DNA of 49,213 nt, from contig CACBXG010000009.1 in the NCBI GenBank assembly GCA_902543145.1, positions 1 to 49,213 of the forward strand, read 5' to 3'. A program made the translations under genes and the position numbers. Source of the stretch: an uncultured SAR116 cluster alpha proteobacterium. Its GTDB lineage: Bacteria > Pseudomonadota > Alphaproteobacteria > Puniceispirillales > Marisalimonadaceae. Positions 4,700-45,914 of the stretch are shown in pieces. The notes below the pieces were generated by a model. The model did not search any database. It was not told the origin of the DNA and worked only from the letters and a program-made list of their open reading frames with translations. The number at the start of each line of letters is the position of its first letter. Position 1 is the first letter of the stretch.

Positions 4700-5461
4700 A
4701 TGAATTTATCAATGGATTTAGACTATTTTGAAACTTTTACTGTAACTCTAATTTTTATGTCTATTTTTATGGGAGGTATAGTTAAAGGGTCTGTAGGCAT
4801 TGGCATGTCTATGTTTTCTGTTCCAATAATAGCGTTTATCTTACCTCCTACTAAAGCAATGATGCTTTTGTGTTTTCCTGTAATTGTAACTAACCTAATT
4901 CAAATGAATATAAAACAAGGAATAAGCAATTATAGATTTCTTCCAATGTTTTTAATGCTTTTTATAGGAATATTGATTGGTGGAAAGTTGATATTAAAAC
5001 TTAACTTTCAGACAATTTCAATTGTCATTGCTTTAACTATTATTTTTTTTACATTATTTAATTTTTTTGGCTTAAATTTAAAAAATATAAAACAAAAAAA
5101 TGAAAAAATATTATCCTTAATTATTGGTTTTTTCTCAGGAATACTTGGTGGACTATCTACATTTTATGCACCCCCCATAATTACCTTCTTAGTTTCATTA
5201 AATTTAGAAAAAGAAAGTTTTATAAGAACAACAGCTACAATGTATTTTTTAGCTTCAATACCATTATATTCATCACTTATTTATCACGGTTTAGGAAATT
5301 TTTATGATTTGTTAATAAGTTTGGTTTTAACCGCTCCAGCATTGTCAGGGCAGTATTTAGGAACTAAAATTAGAATGAGGTTATCCAACGAAATATTTAG
5401 AAAGACTATTTTATCAATCTTAATTATTATTGGATTTTCCCTATTAATTAAAAATTTATAG
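4700..5461 (+). CDS. TauE/SafE (TSUP) family anion exporter
   Basis: A 253-residue membrane protein with about eight helices in two repeats. Each repeat opens with the family's Gly-rich motif: GGIVKGSVGIGMSM near residues 25-38, and GFFSGILGGLSTFYAPP near 142-158. The family moves sulfite, sulfoacetate or other organosulfur anions out of the cell; the substrate here is unknown. A close paralogue with the same signatures (GLIKGTIGFGM, GGLSTVYGPP) is encoded on the minus strand at 26893-27636. The TAAGG ribosome-binding site supports the ATG. Confidence 0.85.
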   Translation: MNLSMDLDYFETFTVTLIFMSIFMGGIVKGSVGIGMSMFSVPIIAFILPPTKAMMLLCFPVIVTNLIQMNIKQGISNYRFLPMFLMLFIGILIGGKLILKLNFQTISIVIALTIIFFTLFNFFGLNLKNIKQKNEKILSLIIGFFSGILGGLSTFYAPPIITFLVSLNLEKESFIRTTATMYFLASIPLYSSLIYHGLGNFYDLLISLVLTAPALSGQYLGTKIRMRLSNEIFRKTILSILIIIGFSLLIKNL

Positions 5462-11515: not shown

Positions 11516-12844
11516 TTATTCACTCCCGATCCAAATATATCCGTCTTTATCCATTATGGGTAGTAAATCCAATGGTATTTCTTTTATGGCTTTTGTTAGT
11601 TCTACAGCCTCTTCAGGTGCCCAGTCTGGACTAGTTATTACCCATTTTTTTACTGCACCAGTTCTCAAACAAAATTTACTGTCATGGAATGGACACAAGA
11701 ACTCGTTTTCTGTTGTAATCTGACCCATTTCAAGTGGTAAGTTCATATGTGGACAAAGATTAGAAAAGGCTGAGAGGTTATCATCATTTCTAACGATTAA
11801 TATTTCTTCGTCATTATGATTAATTTTCTTTTTATCTCCGTTATTCAAATCTTTAGATAACATAATTTTGTTCCAAAACATTCCAGACTCAAAAATTTTA
11901 TCATCTTTAGATTCTAATGATTTTCCTTTCAATTTAGAAATTTCGTATAATGTCGACCTTTGAGATGAACCTTTTAATTTTACCCTAACAAAATCTTCAA
12001 CTTCAGCTCTGTCCTCGATTTCTTTAAATGCTTCTTCTGAAATCAATAATCTTGTTTCAGCTTCTTTATTAGCGGTTTCTACTCTACTAGCAATGTTAAC
12101 AGATTGACCAATGATACTTAGACGTTGATTTCCAGCATTCCCAAGCATACCCACTATTGCCTCTCCATAGTGAACACCTACCCTTACATCAAAATTAATA
12201 TTATAATTATCCAAAAAAACTTTTTTCTTTTTATCTACATCTTCTAAAATTTCTAATGCAGCTTGAGTACATCGATAAACAGAGTCTATTTTGTCATCTA
12301 TACCGAAAGCAGCAAGAAATGCATCACCAATGAAGTTATTGATATCACCGCCATTTTTTTTAACTATTGTTCCCATGTCGTCAAAATATCTATTTAAGAT
12401 GTACATAACATCATAAGAGGGTAATTGTTCACTTAAAGGAGTGAATGAAACTATATCTACAAACATAAGAGCAAGATTTTTTGTGCTCCCAATTGAACCA
12501 ACTGAATTTTTTGTCATTTGATTAGCCAAAATCAAATCTTTTTGATCGAGCAATAATCTTTTAAGCTTTACATTACCTTTAATTTTTGTTTGGCAAGCTA
12601 ATCTTATATTAGATGGTAATTCTAACTTTTCAGACAATTTTTGTTCTGAATTACTCTTTTGAGACAGATTTTCTTCACCTTCAAGAATTTCAACTCTACA
12701 AGTAGAACACATTCCAAGGCCACCACAAGCATGTAGGTGTTGTATGTCATTTCTTAAAGATGCAGTTAATATAGTTTCATCTTTTGAAATTGATATCTCT
12801 GCATTGTCTGGTATCAAATCGATTTTAAATACGTCGTCACTCAT
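11516..12844 (-). CDS. Ferredoxin-nucleotide cyclase-Rieske triple fusion protein
   Basis: A 442-residue cytoplasmic protein with three recognisable domains and no membrane segment. Residues about 5-100 form a plant-type [2Fe-2S] ferredoxin with ligands C40, C46, C49 and C84. Residues about 120-305 form a class III nucleotide cyclase with metal-binding D130 (FVDIVSFT) and D174 (FIGDAF) and transition-state residues N250 and R254 (SVNIASR). Residues about 320-440 form a Rieske domain with C364-P-H366 and C384-P-F-H387. The adenine-selecting Lys is replaced by N170 and its partner by S243, so the product (cAMP, cGMP or other) is uncertain. The layout suggests second-messenger synthesis gated by redox state or electron transfer. 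It appears monocistronic. Confidence 0.9.
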   Translation of the reverse strand: MSDDVFKIDLIPDNAEISISKDETILTASLRNDIQHLHACGGLGMCSTCRVEILEGEENLSQKSNSEQKLSEKLELPSNIRLACQTKIKGNVKLKRLLLDQKDLILANQMTKNSVGSIGSTKNLALMFVDIVSFTPLSEQLPSYDVMYILNRYFDDMGTIVKKNGGDINNFIGDAFLAAFGIDDKIDSVYRCTQAALEILEDVDKKKKVFLDNYNINFDVRVGVHYGEAIVGMLGNAGNQRLSIIGQSVNIASRVETANKEAETRLLISEEAFKEIEDRAEVEDFVRVKLKGSSQRSTLYEISKLKGKSLESKDDKIFESGMFWNKIMLSKDLNNGDKKKINHNDEEILIVRNDDNLSAFSNLCPHMNLPLEMGQITTENEFLCPFHDSKFCLRTGAVKKWVITSPDWAPEEAVELTKAIKEIPLDLLPIMDKDGYIWIGSE

Positions 12845-22234: not shown

Positions 22235-23737
22235 TTAAGTTAAAGTCTTTTTATCAATGAAATCATTTGCTTTTTCAAATATCATTTGTTTTCTATCCTC
22301 ATTCATTCTGTCCAATGATTTAACTAATATTGCAAGTCTTGGATTACTTTTGAAAAAAGCTATATTATCATTCATAAACATCCAATATAATCCATCAACT
22401 ATATCGCACCATTCATCTTTTTTATAATTACTCATTTTTAAAATATAATTAGAGCCACAGGAATAAGGTTTTGTTGCAAATATTCCTCCATCTGCGAATG
22501 TACCCATTCCATAAACGTTAGGAACCATTACCCAATCTGAAGAATCAACAAACATTTCCATAAACCATTTATATATTTCATTTGGATCTATTTTTGACAG
22601 ATTCATTATATTACAAATAATCATTAACCTTGGTATGTGATGTGTGTAACCATATTTTAAACAATCTTTAATTGCGTCATCTAATGGTGTTATACCAGTT
22701 GTGCCTTCATACCAATCAGAAGTTAATTTTCGATCATGTTTCCAAAAATTAGAAGTTTGTTCTACTTTACCTTTGTGATGGTAAATACCTCTAATAAATT
22801 CTCTCCATCCAATAATTTGTCGAATGAAACCCTCTAAGGAATTGATAGGAATTGAATTTAACTTTGCAAAATCTAACGCTTTTTGAATTACTTCATTAGG
22901 TGTTAAAAGTCCAATATTAAGTATTGGACTAATTGCACTATGAAAAAGAAAATTGTTTTCCGAAACTACAGCATCTTCGTAATCTCCAAAATTGAAAAAT
23001 TTTTCTTTAAAAAAATCATCTAACCAATTTAATGACTCTTCTCTGTTTGTTGGCATCCATAAGTTATTTACTAAACCAGGATGATTTCTAAATTTAACAT
23101 TAATAATTGACTTTAACTCTTTGATATCATGTTTATTTTTAATATCTGGTGTTTTTGGTATTAAAGTATTTTTAGGGATTTTTTTCCTATTATCCTCGTC
23201 ATAAGACCATTTTCCTCCAATTGGTTTATTGTTCTCATCAATAAGAATTTTCATTTTTATTCTTATTTTTTGATAAAAACTTGCCATGCGGATTAATTTT
23301 TTTTGTTCATTAGCGAACTCAAAAAATTCTTTTCTTGAAGTTAGAAACATAGGAGTTTGAATTACTTCTTTATGAATATTTTGTTTATTTATAAAATTAA
23401 CAATTTTATTTTCAAAATCATTGTCTTCAATTTCAAAATATTTTAATTTTTCTATACCATGATCTTTAATTATTTTAAGTAACTTATCTTCATACTTATC
23501 ATGAAAACTTTCTTCATCAATTGAATGATAAAATACTGTGTAACCATTCTTAATAAGATTGTCCCTATACTGCCTCATTGACCACAAAAACATTAAAATT
23601 TTTAATTTATGATGTTTATGATTTGTAGTTAGACCAAAATCTTCAGCCATAAAAACCTTGCTGACTTCAGTTTTTTTAATATGCTCAAGTGGAAACAACT
23701 GGTTGCCAAGAACAATTAATAAATCATTACTTATCAT
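22235..23737 (-). CDS. Cryptochrome/photolyase family protein, prokaryotic (6-4) FeS-BCP clade
   Basis: A roughly 500-residue flavoprotein of the clade that repairs (6-4) photoproducts with light. I start at the ATG at 23737 (MISNDLLIVLGNQLFP); a TTG 12 bases earlier overlaps the upstream gene. The N-terminal alpha/beta antenna domain opens with DLLIVLGNQLFP. The C-terminal FAD domain has YGYTHHIPRLMI, SDWVMVPNVYGMGTFADGG and KPYSCGSNYILKMSNY. In characterised members Cys ligands for a 4Fe-4S cluster follow the KMSxY motif (YCxxC); here the sequence is YKKDEW, so at least two ligands seem absent. It is the second gene after the enolase-family gene. Confidence 0.85.
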   Translation of the reverse strand: MISNDLLIVLGNQLFPLEHIKKTEVSKVFMAEDFGLTTNHKHHKLKILMFLWSMRQYRDNLIKNGYTVFYHSIDEESFHDKYEDKLLKIIKDHGIEKLKYFEIEDNDFENKIVNFINKQNIHKEVIQTPMFLTSRKEFFEFANEQKKLIRMASFYQKIRIKMKILIDENNKPIGGKWSYDEDNRKKIPKNTLIPKTPDIKNKHDIKELKSIINVKFRNHPGLVNNLWMPTNREESLNWLDDFFKEKFFNFGDYEDAVVSENNFLFHSAISPILNIGLLTPNEVIQKALDFAKLNSIPINSLEGFIRQIIGWREFIRGIYHHKGKVEQTSNFWKHDRKLTSDWYEGTTGITPLDDAIKDCLKYGYTHHIPRLMIICNIMNLSKIDPNEIYKWFMEMFVDSSDWVMVPNVYGMGTFADGGIFATKPYSCGSNYILKMSNYKKDEWCDIVDGLYWMFMNDNIAFFKSNPRLAILVKSLDRMNEDRKQMIFEKANDFIDKKTLT

Positions 23738-23741
23738 TTTA

Positions 23742-24917
23742 TTACTCAAAAATAGTTACTTTGGTTGTGTTAGTTTTAATAAAATCCCAATCATATTTAA
23801 CTCCCAATCCAATTCCATCAGGTACTGGTACAAAGCCATTATTATTTATGCAATCAATCATATCACTGTAACCACAAGTGTATACTGGAGCCATTGTATT
23901 AGGGCAATCTGGACCAACTAGAGCAACTTCATAAAAATTTGTGTTTCTAGTAGCAGCCATTACATGCCTATGAGCAGGGCCGCATGCATGGATTTCAACA
24001 TCTACACCAAAAGATTCTGCTAAGTGTGAAATTTTTATTGCTCCAGTTATGCCCATATCATATTCTGGGTCAGATCTAAGAAAGTCAGTTCCTCCAGCAA
24101 TAAGAAAATCACATTTGGTTTCTAATCCTCTAATATGTTCTGTTTGCAATATTGGAGTTTTTAACATCTCCCTAAGACGTTTATGTGAAAAAGCAGACAC
24201 ACCACTATCTCTATATGGATCTTCTAACCAAAAGAAGTTTGCTTCATCACAAGCTTTGCCAACATAAAGTGCATCGGCAAAAGTTTTTAGTTGGCATGCT
24301 GGGTCAAGCATTAAAGTCATTTTATCTCCAACTTTTTTTGCCACATGTAAAACATTTTCTGCCTCTTCTTTTGCATTTCCTTCATGCCATCCATGTATTT
24401 TGAAGGCTTTGTAACCCATATCAAAACATTGCTCAGCAAAATCAGCAAAAGCTTCCTTGCTGTTTAAACCACCATTTCTGTCACCATGATATGTGCTTGC
24501 ATATGCTTTAAGATATTTTCTGTAACTTCCTAATAACACAGCAATTGAACAATTTAATTTCTTGCCAGCCCAATCCCACAATGCAATATCTAATGGGCCA
24601 TGGCCCATGTGGTCAAATTGCCTAAGCTCTCTTTTAAAGTCATCGTATATTTTTTCTCTTTCTTCGGCATTATATTCTAATAATTTGGGTGCCAACATTT
24701 TAGCTTGTGCACAAGCTACTTGATTACCTCCCCAGTGAGTAACGTACTCACCTCTACATCCATCTTTAGTCTCTATTACAACCGCAAACTTGTCCAATTT
24801 AATAGAATGGCCTTTGGAATATCCAACTGCTCCAATTGTGTTTGCATTAGTCAATAGACCTAAATTTGCTGCTGAGTGTGTAAATTCGTGTATTTCAACT
24901 CTTTTAATTTGGTTCAT
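23742..24917 (-). CDS. Mandelate racemase-type enolase superfamily enzyme
   Basis: A 391-residue enzyme with an N-terminal capping domain and a (beta/alpha)7-beta barrel. The barrel shows the superfamily array: K173-x-H175 (FKIHGW), metal ligands D205 (MLDPAC), E232 (WLEDPY) and E260 (QTEH), and a possible D287-H310 base pair (EYDMGIT, EIHAC). The group abstracts a proton next to a carboxylate, usually dehydrating or epimerising sugar acids; the substrate cannot be named. It is transcribed divergently from the FMN 2-hydroxyacid dehydrogenase gene and ends four bases before the photolyase ATG. Confidence 0.85.
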   Translation of the reverse strand: MNQIKRVEIHEFTHSAANLGLLTNANTIGAVGYSKGHSIKLDKFAVVIETKDGCRGEYVTHWGGNQVACAQAKMLAPKLLEYNAEEREKIYDDFKRELRQFDHMGHGPLDIALWDWAGKKLNCSIAVLLGSYRKYLKAYASTYHGDRNGGLNSKEAFADFAEQCFDMGYKAFKIHGWHEGNAKEEAENVLHVAKKVGDKMTLMLDPACQLKTFADALYVGKACDEANFFWLEDPYRDSGVSAFSHKRLREMLKTPILQTEHIRGLETKCDFLIAGGTDFLRSDPEYDMGITGAIKISHLAESFGVDVEIHACGPAHRHVMAATRNTNFYEVALVGPDCPNTMAPVYTCGYSDMIDCINNNGFVPVPDGIGLGVKYDWDFIKTNTTKVTIFE

Positions 24918-26892: not shown

Positions 26893-27636
26893 TTATATTG
26901 TTTTAACAAAAAGCATTATACCAAGAAAAACTAAAGTTACTAGAATACAGTTTCTAAACTGTTTTTGATTAATTTTATCCCTTATTTTTGTACCTATTTG
27001 TTGAGCTATCAAAGCGGGTATTATCAATAACAAGCTCATAATAAGATCTTGTTTTGTAGCAAATCCATAATAAATTAATGATCCATATAATGGAAAAGAA
27101 CCAATAAAGTACATAGTTGACACTGTTCTTACAAATTTCTCTTTTGGTAAGTCTACTGCAACTAAATAAGCTAACATTGGTGGGCCGTATACAGTTGATA
27201 ATCCTCCTAATATCCCAGATCCAAAGCCAATAAAAGAAGTGATTATTCTTTCGTATTTTTTATTGATATTATTATTGATTTTAAAGCCAAAACAATTAAT
27301 TACAGCTGCAAATATTATTAAAATTGCGATTATTTGGGTAATTGTATTTAAATTTATTTCAAGTATTAGTCTTGCACCTATAATTAACCCCACAACTAGG
27401 AATAAAAACATTGGCAAAAACCTGTAGCTACTAATACCTTTTTTAAATTTTATTTGTAAAAAATTCGTTAAAAAGATTGGAGCACAAAGTAAAATCATAG
27501 CTGTGGTTACTGGTACTGCGAACGCAATTAACGGCAAAGCTACCATAGGCATCCCAAATCCAATAGTACCTTTAATAAGCCCTCCAGCCATTACAGCTAA
27601 TATTATCACAATTACTATTATTGGGTCATTATACAT
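26893..27636 (-). CDS. TauE/SafE (TSUP) family anion exporter, second copy
   Basis: A 247-residue membrane protein, about eight helices, in two repeats opening with GGLIKGTIGFGMPM and GFGSGILGGLSTVYGPP. By eye it is about half identical to the exporter at 4700-5461, including the shared KxGISxYRFLPMF loop and the STMYF/ATMYF helix. The closeness suggests an in-genome duplication or two related acquisitions with different anions. Substrate unknown. Confidence 0.85.
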   Translation of the reverse strand: MYNDPIIVIVIILAVMAGGLIKGTIGFGMPMVALPLIAFAVPVTTAMILLCAPIFLTNFLQIKFKKGISSYRFLPMFLFLVVGLIIGARLILEINLNTITQIIAILIIFAAVINCFGFKINNNINKKYERIITSFIGFGSGILGGLSTVYGPPMLAYLVAVDLPKEKFVRTVSTMYFIGSFPLYGSLIYYGFATKQDLIMSLLLIIPALIAQQIGTKIRDKINQKQFRNCILVTLVFLGIMLFVKTI

Positions 27637-43259: not shown

Positions 43260-45914
43260 ATGGAACTTTTATTTTTAGCATTATTAATAATTTTGATGGC
43301 TATTTCTCTTGGATCAGGTTTTCCAGTTGCTTTTGCTTTACCTGGTTCAGCTATAATTTCTATAGGTGTTGCTGCTCTTTTTGGATATTTATTTGAAAAT
43401 AACACGGATGCATATTTTTATTCAGGTGGGGCATCTGAATGGTTGTCTGCCGGAGTTACAAACCTGAGAGGTGTTTATTGGGAGGTTGAAAGAGACACAT
43501 TAATAGCCATACCTTTGTTTATTTTTATGGGCTTAATGCTACAAAGATCTAAAATTGCTGAAGATTTGTTAGTAACCATGGCACAACTTTTTGGTCCTGT
43601 TCGTGGGGGTTTAGGAATTTCAGTTGTTTTTGTTGGAGCATTACTGGCTGCTACAACTGGAATTGTTGGTGCAACCGTTGTAGCAATGGGATTAATATCT
43701 TTGCCAGCTATGCTTAGAAACAAATATTCTGCACCTCTTGCTACCGGAACAATAGCTGCATCTGGAACTTTAGGACAAATCATTCCTCCATCTATTGTCT
43801 TAATTATTTTAGCTGATCAACTTGCAACAGCCTCGGATCAAGCAAGTACTATGAGAAAAGCTCTTTATAAAGAAGCAACAGGAGAAATATCAATGCCGTC
43901 AGTATTTGATGTTGTTTCCACTAGCGCAGGAGAAATGTTTTTAGGTGCTTTTCTTCCAGGAATTTTGCTTGTAGGCATATACATGCTTTTTATTTTGTTA
44001 CTAGCTTTTGTTTCGCCTAAAAGTGCACCCTCAGTTCCGTATGAAGGGAATATGGACAAAAAATTCTGGCTTAATGTAATGTTGATATTAATACCTCCAC
44101 TAACATTAATTATATTAGTGTTAGGCTCTATTATTACTGGAATTGCCACTGTTAATCAGGCTGGTGCAATAGGCGCAGCTGGTGCTATTATAATGGCTGG
44201 TTATAGGCAAACAGAAGGTAAAAAATCCTCTTTGTATCCAGCTATCTTAGTTTTAATTGCAATATTACTTTTGGCATATGCAGTCAGTAATTATACAATG
44301 AATGTAAAACTTATAAATACGTTTGAGGATAAAATAGGTATTTCCATAGGTGTTTTAGGTTCTTTTATCCTATTATTTGCTCTTGGATGGAGTAGTTGGA
44401 GACTATTTAAGTTAAATAATACTATGCAAGGTGTAATGATGGAAACAGCCAAAACAACATCTTTAGTTTTTATCATTCTCTTAGGTGCTGCTATGCTTAC
44501 AGCTGCGTTTAGGGCGTTTGGAGGAGAAGAACTTGTAAAAGAATATTTAAACTCTCTGCCTGGTGGTTTTTGGTCAAAGTTTGTTATTGTAATGATAGTA
44601 ATTTTTATACTGGGTTTTTTCCTAGATTTTATTGAAATTGCAGTTGTAGTAGTGCCAATTGTTGCTCCTATTTTACTCGCGGATCCTTCTGCAAATATAA
44701 CTGCTGTATGGTTAGGGGTAATGATTGGTTTAAATATTCAGACCTCTTTTTTAACTCCTCCTTTTGGTTTTGCTTTGTTTTATTTAAGAGGTGTTGCTTC
44801 AAAAGCAGTTAAAACAATCCAAATGTATAAAGGTGTCGTACCGTTCATAACTCTACAACTAATAGCTTTAGCAGTCGTGGGCTCATACCCATTTTTAGTA
44901 AACTACTTACCAAATAGATTAAATTTTCTTTCAGAAACATCTCCTCCACCTAAGAACCCAAAATTACAATTGTGTACAGAAAAATATATGAAAGAAAATG
45001 TATTAAATTCTAATAATTTAACAAAAGTTTCAGTTACGAATTTATCTAAAGCTGATTTGTCCTCAATGCCCAAGAAATATTACACTACAATTACTAATTC
45101 CATTAATACAATTGAAAGTGGTTTATTGAATTTAAACAAAGCATTTGAAATTGAAGCTAAAATACAAGATCAATCTATAAATTATTTACCATTATTAAAA
45201 ATAGTAAGAAATAAAGAAAAAAATGTTAGAGAACTTGAATCTTTAATTAAAAATAATGAAATAACCATTTCAAGAATTGAAAATGATAATAAACAAAGAG
45301 TTTCATTTTTAAAATCAGAAATTGAAAAACTTAAAAATGATATTCGAATTGAAAAACAAGATTTTCCAAAAAATTGGTCTGATACCTATAAAAATTTTCA
45401 GAAATTAATAAAAGAAGAAAATTTAAATCGTATTAAATACAGAAGAGCAATGGATAATTCTTATGACGAAATTACAACATTGCTTAACATTTTATCATCA
45501 AGAACTGAATTTTATTTATTTAGAGATGAGTTTAAAAAATACAGCAATATATTAGAGATAAGTGAGCCTAAATCTTTATCGAAAGAAATTAAAGTTTTTT
45601 CAAAAAAGATCTCACGTTTACCCGATAATTCAAAGATTACATCCAAACTTTCTAAAGTGTCTAGAAATTTAAAAAAGAAAAAAGTAAACTATAAAAAAGT
45701 TGTCAAAGATTTTAATTTTTCTTTCGCAGAGTATGAAAAAAAATATAGTAATCTTAAAAAAATTGATAATAAAGTAATCGACGCCTTATCAGTATTTCTT
45801 GATAGTACAAAATTTACAATAGGATTAAGACAACAGCAAAAAATTCCTAAAAATATTGCTTTGTTTTTAGCAGGCTGTAAATCTGATCATCGTGATTTGT
45901 CTCTATATTTTTGA
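43260..45914 (+). CDS. TRAP transporter large permease (DctM) with coiled-coil C-terminal extension
   Basis: An 884-residue protein. Residues 1 to about 560 are DctM (FcbT3-like, with the subgroup's insertion near 265-385), the Na+-driven channel subunit: typical stretches are SGFPVAFALPGSA, TGIVGATVVAMGLISLPAML, GTLGQIIPPSIVLIIL and FLTPPFGFALFYLRG. After the last helix, about 320 extra residues form a Lys/Glu-rich soluble region with long heptad-like helices (ISRIENDNKQRVSFLKSEIE, RNLKKKKVNYKKVVKDF). No known domain is recognised there. The stop overlaps a TTG of the next gene, and the ggt ATG follows 11 bases later. Confidence 0.88.
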   Translation: MELLFLALLIILMAISLGSGFPVAFALPGSAIISIGVAALFGYLFENNTDAYFYSGGASEWLSAGVTNLRGVYWEVERDTLIAIPLFIFMGLMLQRSKIAEDLLVTMAQLFGPVRGGLGISVVFVGALLAATTGIVGATVVAMGLISLPAMLRNKYSAPLATGTIAASGTLGQIIPPSIVLIILADQLATASDQASTMRKALYKEATGEISMPSVFDVVSTSAGEMFLGAFLPGILLVGIYMLFILLLAFVSPKSAPSVPYEGNMDKKFWLNVMLILIPPLTLIILVLGSIITGIATVNQAGAIGAAGAIIMAGYRQTEGKKSSLYPAILVLIAILLLAYAVSNYTMNVKLINTFEDKIGISIGVLGSFILLFALGWSSWRLFKLNNTMQGVMMETAKTTSLVFIILLGAAMLTAAFRAFGGEELVKEYLNSLPGGFWSKFVIVMIVIFILGFFLDFIEIAVVVVPIVAPILLADPSANITAVWLGVMIGLNIQTSFLTPPFGFALFYLRGVASKAVKTIQMYKGVVPFITLQLIALAVVGSYPFLVNYLPNRLNFLSETSPPPKNPKLQLCTEKYMKENVLNSNNLTKVSVTNLSKADLSSMPKKYYTTITNSINTIESGLLNLNKAFEIEAKIQDQSINYLPLLKIVRNKEKNVRELESLIKNNEITISRIENDNKQRVSFLKSEIEKLKNDIRIEKQDFPKNWSDTYKNFQKLIKEENLNRIKYRRAMDNSYDEITTLLNILSSRTEFYLFRDEFKKYSNILEISEPKSLSKEIKVFSKKISRLPDNSKITSKLSKVSRNLKKKKVNYKKVVKDFNFSFAEYEKKYSNLKKIDNKVIDALSVFLDSTKFTIGLRQQQKIPKNIALFLAGCKSDHRDLSLYF

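Follow-up and report, generated by a model that had tools for sequence, protein, structure and literature searches.

An uncultured alphaproteobacterium of the SAR116 cluster, an abundant ocean clade, encodes a protein in which a class III nucleotide cyclase domain stands between two different [2Fe-2S] domains, a Fer2-type ferredoxin in front and a Rieske domain behind. With somewhat better than even confidence, we regard this protein as a soluble, probably homodimeric cyclase whose activity would depend on the redox state of the [2Fe-2S] clusters it carries. The gene occupies positions 11516..12844 on the minus strand of the window, by which we mean the whole analysed stretch of 49,213 nucleotides; it starts with the ATG at 12844, ends with the stop codon at 11516-11518, which is included in the span, and the translated ORF has 442 amino acids. 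All three domains exceed their Pfam cut-offs, as expected from an earlier note that had proposed the fusion: Fer2 (PF00111; residues 12-89, 12578..12811, minus) with E 2.8e-12 and 46.8 bits against a cut-off of 21, Guanylate_cyc (PF00211; residues 120-295, 11960..12487, minus) with E 8.1e-24 and 84.7 bits against 21.9, and Rieske (PF00355; residues 324-401, 11642..11875, minus) with E 1.6e-16 and 60.4 bits against 20.3. In NCBIfam and the PDB, the best relatives of the Fer2 part are TIGR02007 (fdx_isc) and the Escherichia coli ferredoxin 1i7h, those of the central part are the class III cyclases CyaB (3r5g) and adenylate cyclase 9, and those of the Rieske part are HcaC, sulredoxin, 3gce and 8jng. 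A literature search, with most subscription journals outside its scope, gave no paper describing this architecture, of which the earlier note had likewise known no description, and found none on SAR116 and adenylate cyclase.

Conservation of the functional residues was assessed in an alignment of 17 full-length members (A1), which were picked to span lineages and share 37-92% identity with the window protein; by Pfam, all of them contain Fer2, Guanylate_cyc and Rieske, and six also contain zf-CDGSH. The four Fer2 ligands (C40, C46, C49 and C84), the two metal-binding aspartates (D130 and D174) and transition-state residues (N250 and R254) of the cyclase, and the Rieske ligands (C364-x-H366 and C384-x2-H387) are invariant in 17/17 members. 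The earlier note had numbered these twelve residues correctly and had rightly called all ligands intact. Its description of the ferredoxin as plant-type was inexact: the Fer2 spacing is CX5CX2CX34C, which we take to be the adrenodoxin/ISC/NqrF pattern, and not the CX4CX2C of plant-type ferredoxins. Assignment to class III was based on a Guanylate_cyc score above the Pfam cut-off and on the presence of the two metal aspartates with the Asn/Arg pair, and the window protein has both. In the Rieske domain, the span between the two ligand boxes is 17 residues in the ten marine-type members and 28-33 residues in the seven rhizobial-type ones. The boxes of the window protein read CPHMNL and CPFH. High-potential Rieske proteins of the bc1/b6f type contain an extra disulphide-forming Cys pair next to the ligands; this pair is absent from the window protein, and its Rieske domain is therefore expected to resemble a low-potential Rieske-type ferredoxin. 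It shares its domain and CxH...CxxH motif with the oxygenase Rieske-type ferredoxins (HcaC, 3gce and 8jng) and with sulredoxin, but these are separate small electron carriers, whereas here the domain is the C-terminal module of a cyclase. We infer that the predicted clusters are assembled in the protein and, going by cluster type alone, it is reasonable to expect that the two differ in potential.

The fusion is not a product of misassembly. A genome scan returned 20 loci and showed that 16 other records (14 SAR116 and two alpha proteobacterium SCGC) contain an intact ORF of 441-444 amino acids that is 88-100% identical to the window protein. Two of the 20 loci (L015 and L020) carry interrupted copies, and two more (L018 and L019) hold a longer form, 43-44% identical. 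In addition, the three domains are each under purifying selection, with dN/dS values (NG86, 15 sequences from the window's genus) of 0.065 for Fer2 (residues 8-105), 0.023 for the cyclase (residues 120-305) and 0.061 for Rieske (residues 323-440); the linkers give 0.010 (residues 106-119) and 0.104 (residues 306-322), values that come from only 14 and 17 codons. Together, the intact records and this selection on all three domains rule out an assembly chimera. A phage or viral origin was also rejected: among eight matching phage records none reaches 80% query cover and the five listed cover the cyclase core only, and three viral contigs match only residues 119-302. No Rfam family reaches its gathering threshold in the window, promoter-like sites are fewer (8) than the shuffle mean (13.3), and no terminator was found.

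Within the window's order, 38 of 136 genomes match the protein at E <= 1e-30 and, sorted by reading of the match ranges, fall into three sets. Nineteen belong to the window's genus, 17 of them uninterrupted including the window's own; the interrupted copies, in G011 (C5:20547-21854) and G027 (C8:2246-3555), may reflect decay or single-cell sequencing error. Eight belong to another family and have the longer form, which in G098 is divided between two contigs. The remaining 11, among them G004 with four stops, match over the Fer2-cyclase part without Rieske. The gene is accessory within the genus. The flanking permease was matched in two of the eight gene-less genus members searched; G048 has the permease and the downstream genes with no cyclase match between them, and the contig of G015 covers the permease side only.

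Beyond the order, the architecture extends to other alphaproteobacteria and to two Rhizobium plasmids. In a sample of 385 genomes of the class, at least three match at E <= 1e-60, namely the window's, G391 (up to residue 405) and G201 (without Rieske), and in a sample of 398 genomes of the phylum at least 15 match at E <= 1e-50, namely the window's, the full-length G751 and 13 with matches that stop at the cyclase. Full-length members occur in at least five of 297 genomes of the order of G751, in two of ten genomes of the order of G391 and in two of 11 genomes of the family of G936, these three genomes included. Among plasmid records, 552 have a match but only two of these reach at least 80% query cover, both from Rhizobium; they are the plasmids of Rhizobium etli 8C-3 and R. 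gallicum R602sp, with full-length relatives 39-40% identical to the window protein. Soluble two-domain Fer2-cyclases, as L044 of G201, L046 of G647 and WP_245126431.1 of Hymenobacter volaticus, share the domain order and are 38-44% identical over both domains, but lack the Rieske domain that the window protein has.

An additional layer of complexity is found in a sister clade whose members carry CDGSH motifs. The six A1 members of this clade (L018, L055, L057, L060, L062 and L075), which come from two orders, share the three domains of the window protein at 43-46% identity but each have two complete CDGSH motifs ahead of them at the N-terminal end, whereas the window protein has none in the motif test (CxCx2[ST]x3PxCDG[SAT]H). 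Genes for this form were located at L018 43-1584, L019 4013-5554, L055 8210-9718, L057 8805-10340 and L060 7954-9489. Judging from its motifs, the CDGSH form would surround a single cyclase with four [2Fe-2S] sites, which belong to three kinds. No separate CDGSH protein was found in the window's own genome, which is 76% complete.

The order in which these domains were gained was approached with a midpoint-rooted tree of the Fer2-cyclase core (37 rows), in which several branches are long and the deep order is unsure. The 19 Rieske-bearing rows and the two-domain protein L044 form one group (91/96), within which the eight CDGSH rows make up one clade (100/99) that joins the three-domain form of SAR116 (97/96). 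The best tree nests the Fer2-only L044 weakly among the Rieske rows (80/84). When L044 is left out the Rieske rows form a single clade (98/95), and when it is included the AU test does not reject their monophyly (p 0.073). In the 5 kb surrounding the L044 gene, a motif scan found no Rieske box downstream, and upstream a single CxH...CxxH-like string dissimilar to a Rieske box. The likeliest history would run from a Fer2-cyclase through addition of Rieske, which L044 may have lost again, to addition of the two CDGSH domains; the trees suggest that domains were gained by stepwise accretion.

The two linkers of the protein behave differently. The hinge between Fer2 and cyclase (residues 90-119, 12488..12577, minus) is 30 residues long in all 17 members of A1, while the tether between cyclase and Rieske (residues 304-322, 11879..11935, minus) varies in sequence and, by lineage, in length (19, 21 or 24 residues). 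Mean pairwise identity in this alignment is 47% for the hinge and 25% for the tether, to be compared with 23% for the N-terminal edge, 31% for the tail and 42-55% for the domains. The distance from the fourth Fer2 cysteine to the first metal aspartate is likewise fixed at 46 residues in all 20 rows of the Rieske group (the 19 Rieske-bearing rows and the two-domain one), and amounts to 47 (seven rows) or 43-44 residues (three rows) in ten other soluble Fer2-cyclases and to 42-43 residues in seven membrane Fer2-cyclases. Because the hinge is invariant and the tether variable, we read the Fer2 domain as probably docked in a fixed register on the catalytic core, and the Rieske domain as its likely tethered electron partner.

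To our knowledge, redox control has been worked out for few bacterial class III cyclases, the main one being the membrane-bound, quinone-linked CyaC. Passages of PMC10463352 describe CyaC of Sinorhizobium meliloti (SMc01818) as a class III adenylate cyclase that carries a [2Fe-2S] cluster and whose activity follows its redox state; a six-transmembrane anchor with two haem B groups links it to quinones, and oxidation by these activates it. Redox control of the window cyclase, as proposed in the earlier note, is plausible, and CyaC, which that note did not name, is a characterised precedent for it. Both proteins join a class III cyclase to a [2Fe-2S] module, a likeness drawn from the description of CyaC in those passages. 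CyaC is held in the membrane by its di-haem anchor (PMC10463352), whereas the window protein has no such anchor and has a Rieske domain in addition. Only 11 residues precede the Fer2 domain in the window protein, which leaves no room for an N-terminal membrane region. Such a region is present in seven other Fer2-cyclases, two from Rhizobium plasmids and five, CyaC-resembling, from the window's own order (L078, L079, L080, L081 and L082). In these seven proteins the segment ahead of Fer2 contains 4-7 hydrophobic peaks and five invariant histidines, which would fit an anchor like that of CyaC. On this comparison, the window protein would be a soluble relative of CyaC that obtains its electrons from a different source. 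We infer that the CyaC cluster is located in a Fer2 domain.

In the model that we favour, the protein would dimerise, electrons would pass between its domains and the cyclase would be gated by the Fer2 domain, which sits directly ahead of the catalytic core on its 30-residue hinge. The corresponding module of CyaC probably gates in the same way, its cluster being fed from the quinone-linked haems of the membrane. In the window protein, the Rieske domain on its looser C-terminal tether probably exchanges electrons between Fer2 and soluble partners, a function that the two N-terminal CDGSH domains of the sister clade may perform likewise. If it behaves as CyaC does, the protein would be active when oxidised. 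An extension of this model in which the distinct [2Fe-2S] modules jointly read more than one soluble redox pool and report the comparison as a cyclic nucleotide is possible but rather unlikely. In this extension the nucleotide may be other than cAMP, given the N/S or N/T purine selectors of the window protein and most Rieske-group relatives inspected and the place of the gene between guaB and guaA in two genomes of one genus.

Which nucleotide the enzyme makes is a separate question. According to passages of PMC4215837, adenylyl cyclases conserve Lys and Asp at the two purine-selecting positions, and guanylyl cyclases have Glu at the first and a variety of residues including Ser and Thr at the second. 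Aligned to CyaB (3r5g), the window protein has the non-canonical pair N170 and S243. Its N170 fits neither the adenylyl nor the guanylyl cyclase pattern, and by the rule of Lys plus Asp (or Thr) the protein is not classed as ATP-specific. The seven other Rieske-group proteins inspected have N/T (four), K/T (two) or L/T (one), four soluble Fer2-only relatives have D/A (two), K/T (one) or N/T (one), and two membrane Fer2-cyclases have K/T. In the window's genome, four more class III cyclases were found, and all of them have Lys at the first position. Since the Lys position of adenylyl cyclases is Asn in the window protein, the 'cAMP-like' signalling of the earlier note is unproven. The pair N170/S243 is non-canonical and proteins of the Rieske group differ at the first selector (N, K or L), which makes the catalytic output uncertain; the product may be cAMP, cGMP or another cyclic nucleotide.

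The genomic surroundings were compared for an electron partner or effector. The loci compared share no neighbour from one lineage to the next, and synteny holds within the genus; the comparison used crude ORF calls, with many false frames in the GC-rich rhizobial loci. The window's genome has two matches to cNMP-binding domains and at least five class III cyclases. In one CDGSH-form neighbourhood, a DCC1-like thiol-disulphide oxidoreductase adjoins the gene, and this ORF family is found in four loci. In G391 and G1136, which belong to one genus, the cyclase gene lies between guaB and guaA, separated by 3 bp from the former and by 26-32 bp from the latter, counted from first in-frame starts (guaB-cyclase-guaA at L055 6740-11286 and L093 1423-4901, all on one strand). 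Seven further genomes of that family gave matches to both guaB and guaA, those to guaA being partial in G1134 and G1137, and in all seven the guaB-guaA interval is 1,396-1,586 bp; elsewhere it is 1,386 bp in the window's genome, 3,421 bp in G751, 66 bp in G101 and 73 bp in G104. Because the gap in other genomes also fits another gene, the position may be incidental and the link to guaB/guaA is weak.

Several other genes of the window were recorded. At 22235-23749 on the minus strand lies a photolyase-related protein (Pfam DPRP and FAD_binding_7) whose gene shares the 8 bp at its start with the end of an enolase-superfamily gene (23742-24917); relatives of this type can bind [4Fe-4S]. Two TauE/SafE-type relatives of sulphite exporters are encoded at 4700-5461 and 26893-27636, and a TRAP transporter DctM-type protein of 884 amino acids at 43260-45914. 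DctM is the sole Pfam family of the latter at E <= 1e-4, and its long C-terminal part appears unrelated to DctM.

Among the alternatives to redox control, a sensor of iron or Fe-S supply, in which cluster occupancy (apo versus holo) and not electron state sets the cyclase, so that it reads iron status or cluster-assembly capacity, is unlikely but has several points on its side. Each enzyme has multiple independent [2Fe-2S] sites with every ligand set conserved, and the sister clade gains two more domains of the CDGSH type, which is known for labile clusters. However, no recognisable iron-regulation gene lies beside the cyclase gene among the window neighbours scanned, and the Rieske domain, elsewhere an electron carrier, would be an unobvious choice for a labile-cluster sensor. 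We consider it improbable that the protein is a gas or oxidant sensor, in which attack of NO, O2 or ROS on one cluster would switch the cyclase. Sensing of NO and ROS by clusters is common, but clusters of the Fer2 and low-potential Rieske types usually serve as carriers that are stable in air, and no recognisable NO or oxidative-stress gene was seen among the neighbours inspected. A point in favour of gas sensing is the binding of NO by the reduced cluster of mitoNEET, reported in PMC9490426.

Improbable to much the same degree is the reverse logic, in which the protein would mainly pass electrons from Fer2 to Rieske in the service of a soluble oxygenase or reductase, and its cyclase fold would act as a scaffold for the dimer or as a switch gated by nucleotides. 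In the electron chains of ring-hydroxylating dioxygenases, Fer2 and Rieske domains naturally work together, and the R. etli 8C-3 copy is located downstream of such an operon (L040 1546-9383), which comprises alpha, beta, reductase and short-chain dehydrogenase genes followed by more ORFs and an alpha/beta hydrolase; the non-canonical N170/S243 would also agree with this reading. Against it, relatives of the alpha, beta and reductase genes are absent around six other rhizobial-type copies, including that of R. gallicum with a cyclase 97% identical (tblastn, E <= 1e-3, 16-19 kb round each copy), and the operon was rejected as a dedicated partner. Moreover, the cyclase retains its metal Asp pair and Asn/Arg in every aligned member and is the most constrained of the three domains. 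Finally, a Pycsar-type pyrimidine cyclase in anti-phage defence is very improbable: although the PycC models of PADLOC match (best E 5.9e-22) and the purine selectors are non-canonical, the matches fall largely on the cyclase core, the lineages have no conserved neighbour in common, none of six neighbouring window proteins scanned matches a Pycsar effector (PycTM/PycTIR-type) and five match no defence model, the sixth being an ABC-transporter ATPase that matches mad3 (E 1.4e-33), mad8, AriA and ATPase-Toprim, as an ABC ATPase may.

Control by the redox state of its own clusters remains the reading of the window protein that we favour. What is new with respect to CyaC-type redox cyclases is the addition of a Rieske domain to the Fer2-cyclase, to which the sister proteins add two CDGSH domains more. 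The resulting series of one, two and four cluster domains on the same core allows asking how electron state is converted into a second messenger, and this soluble family also raises the question of what role a Rieske ferredoxin may have outside oxygenases and respiratory chains.
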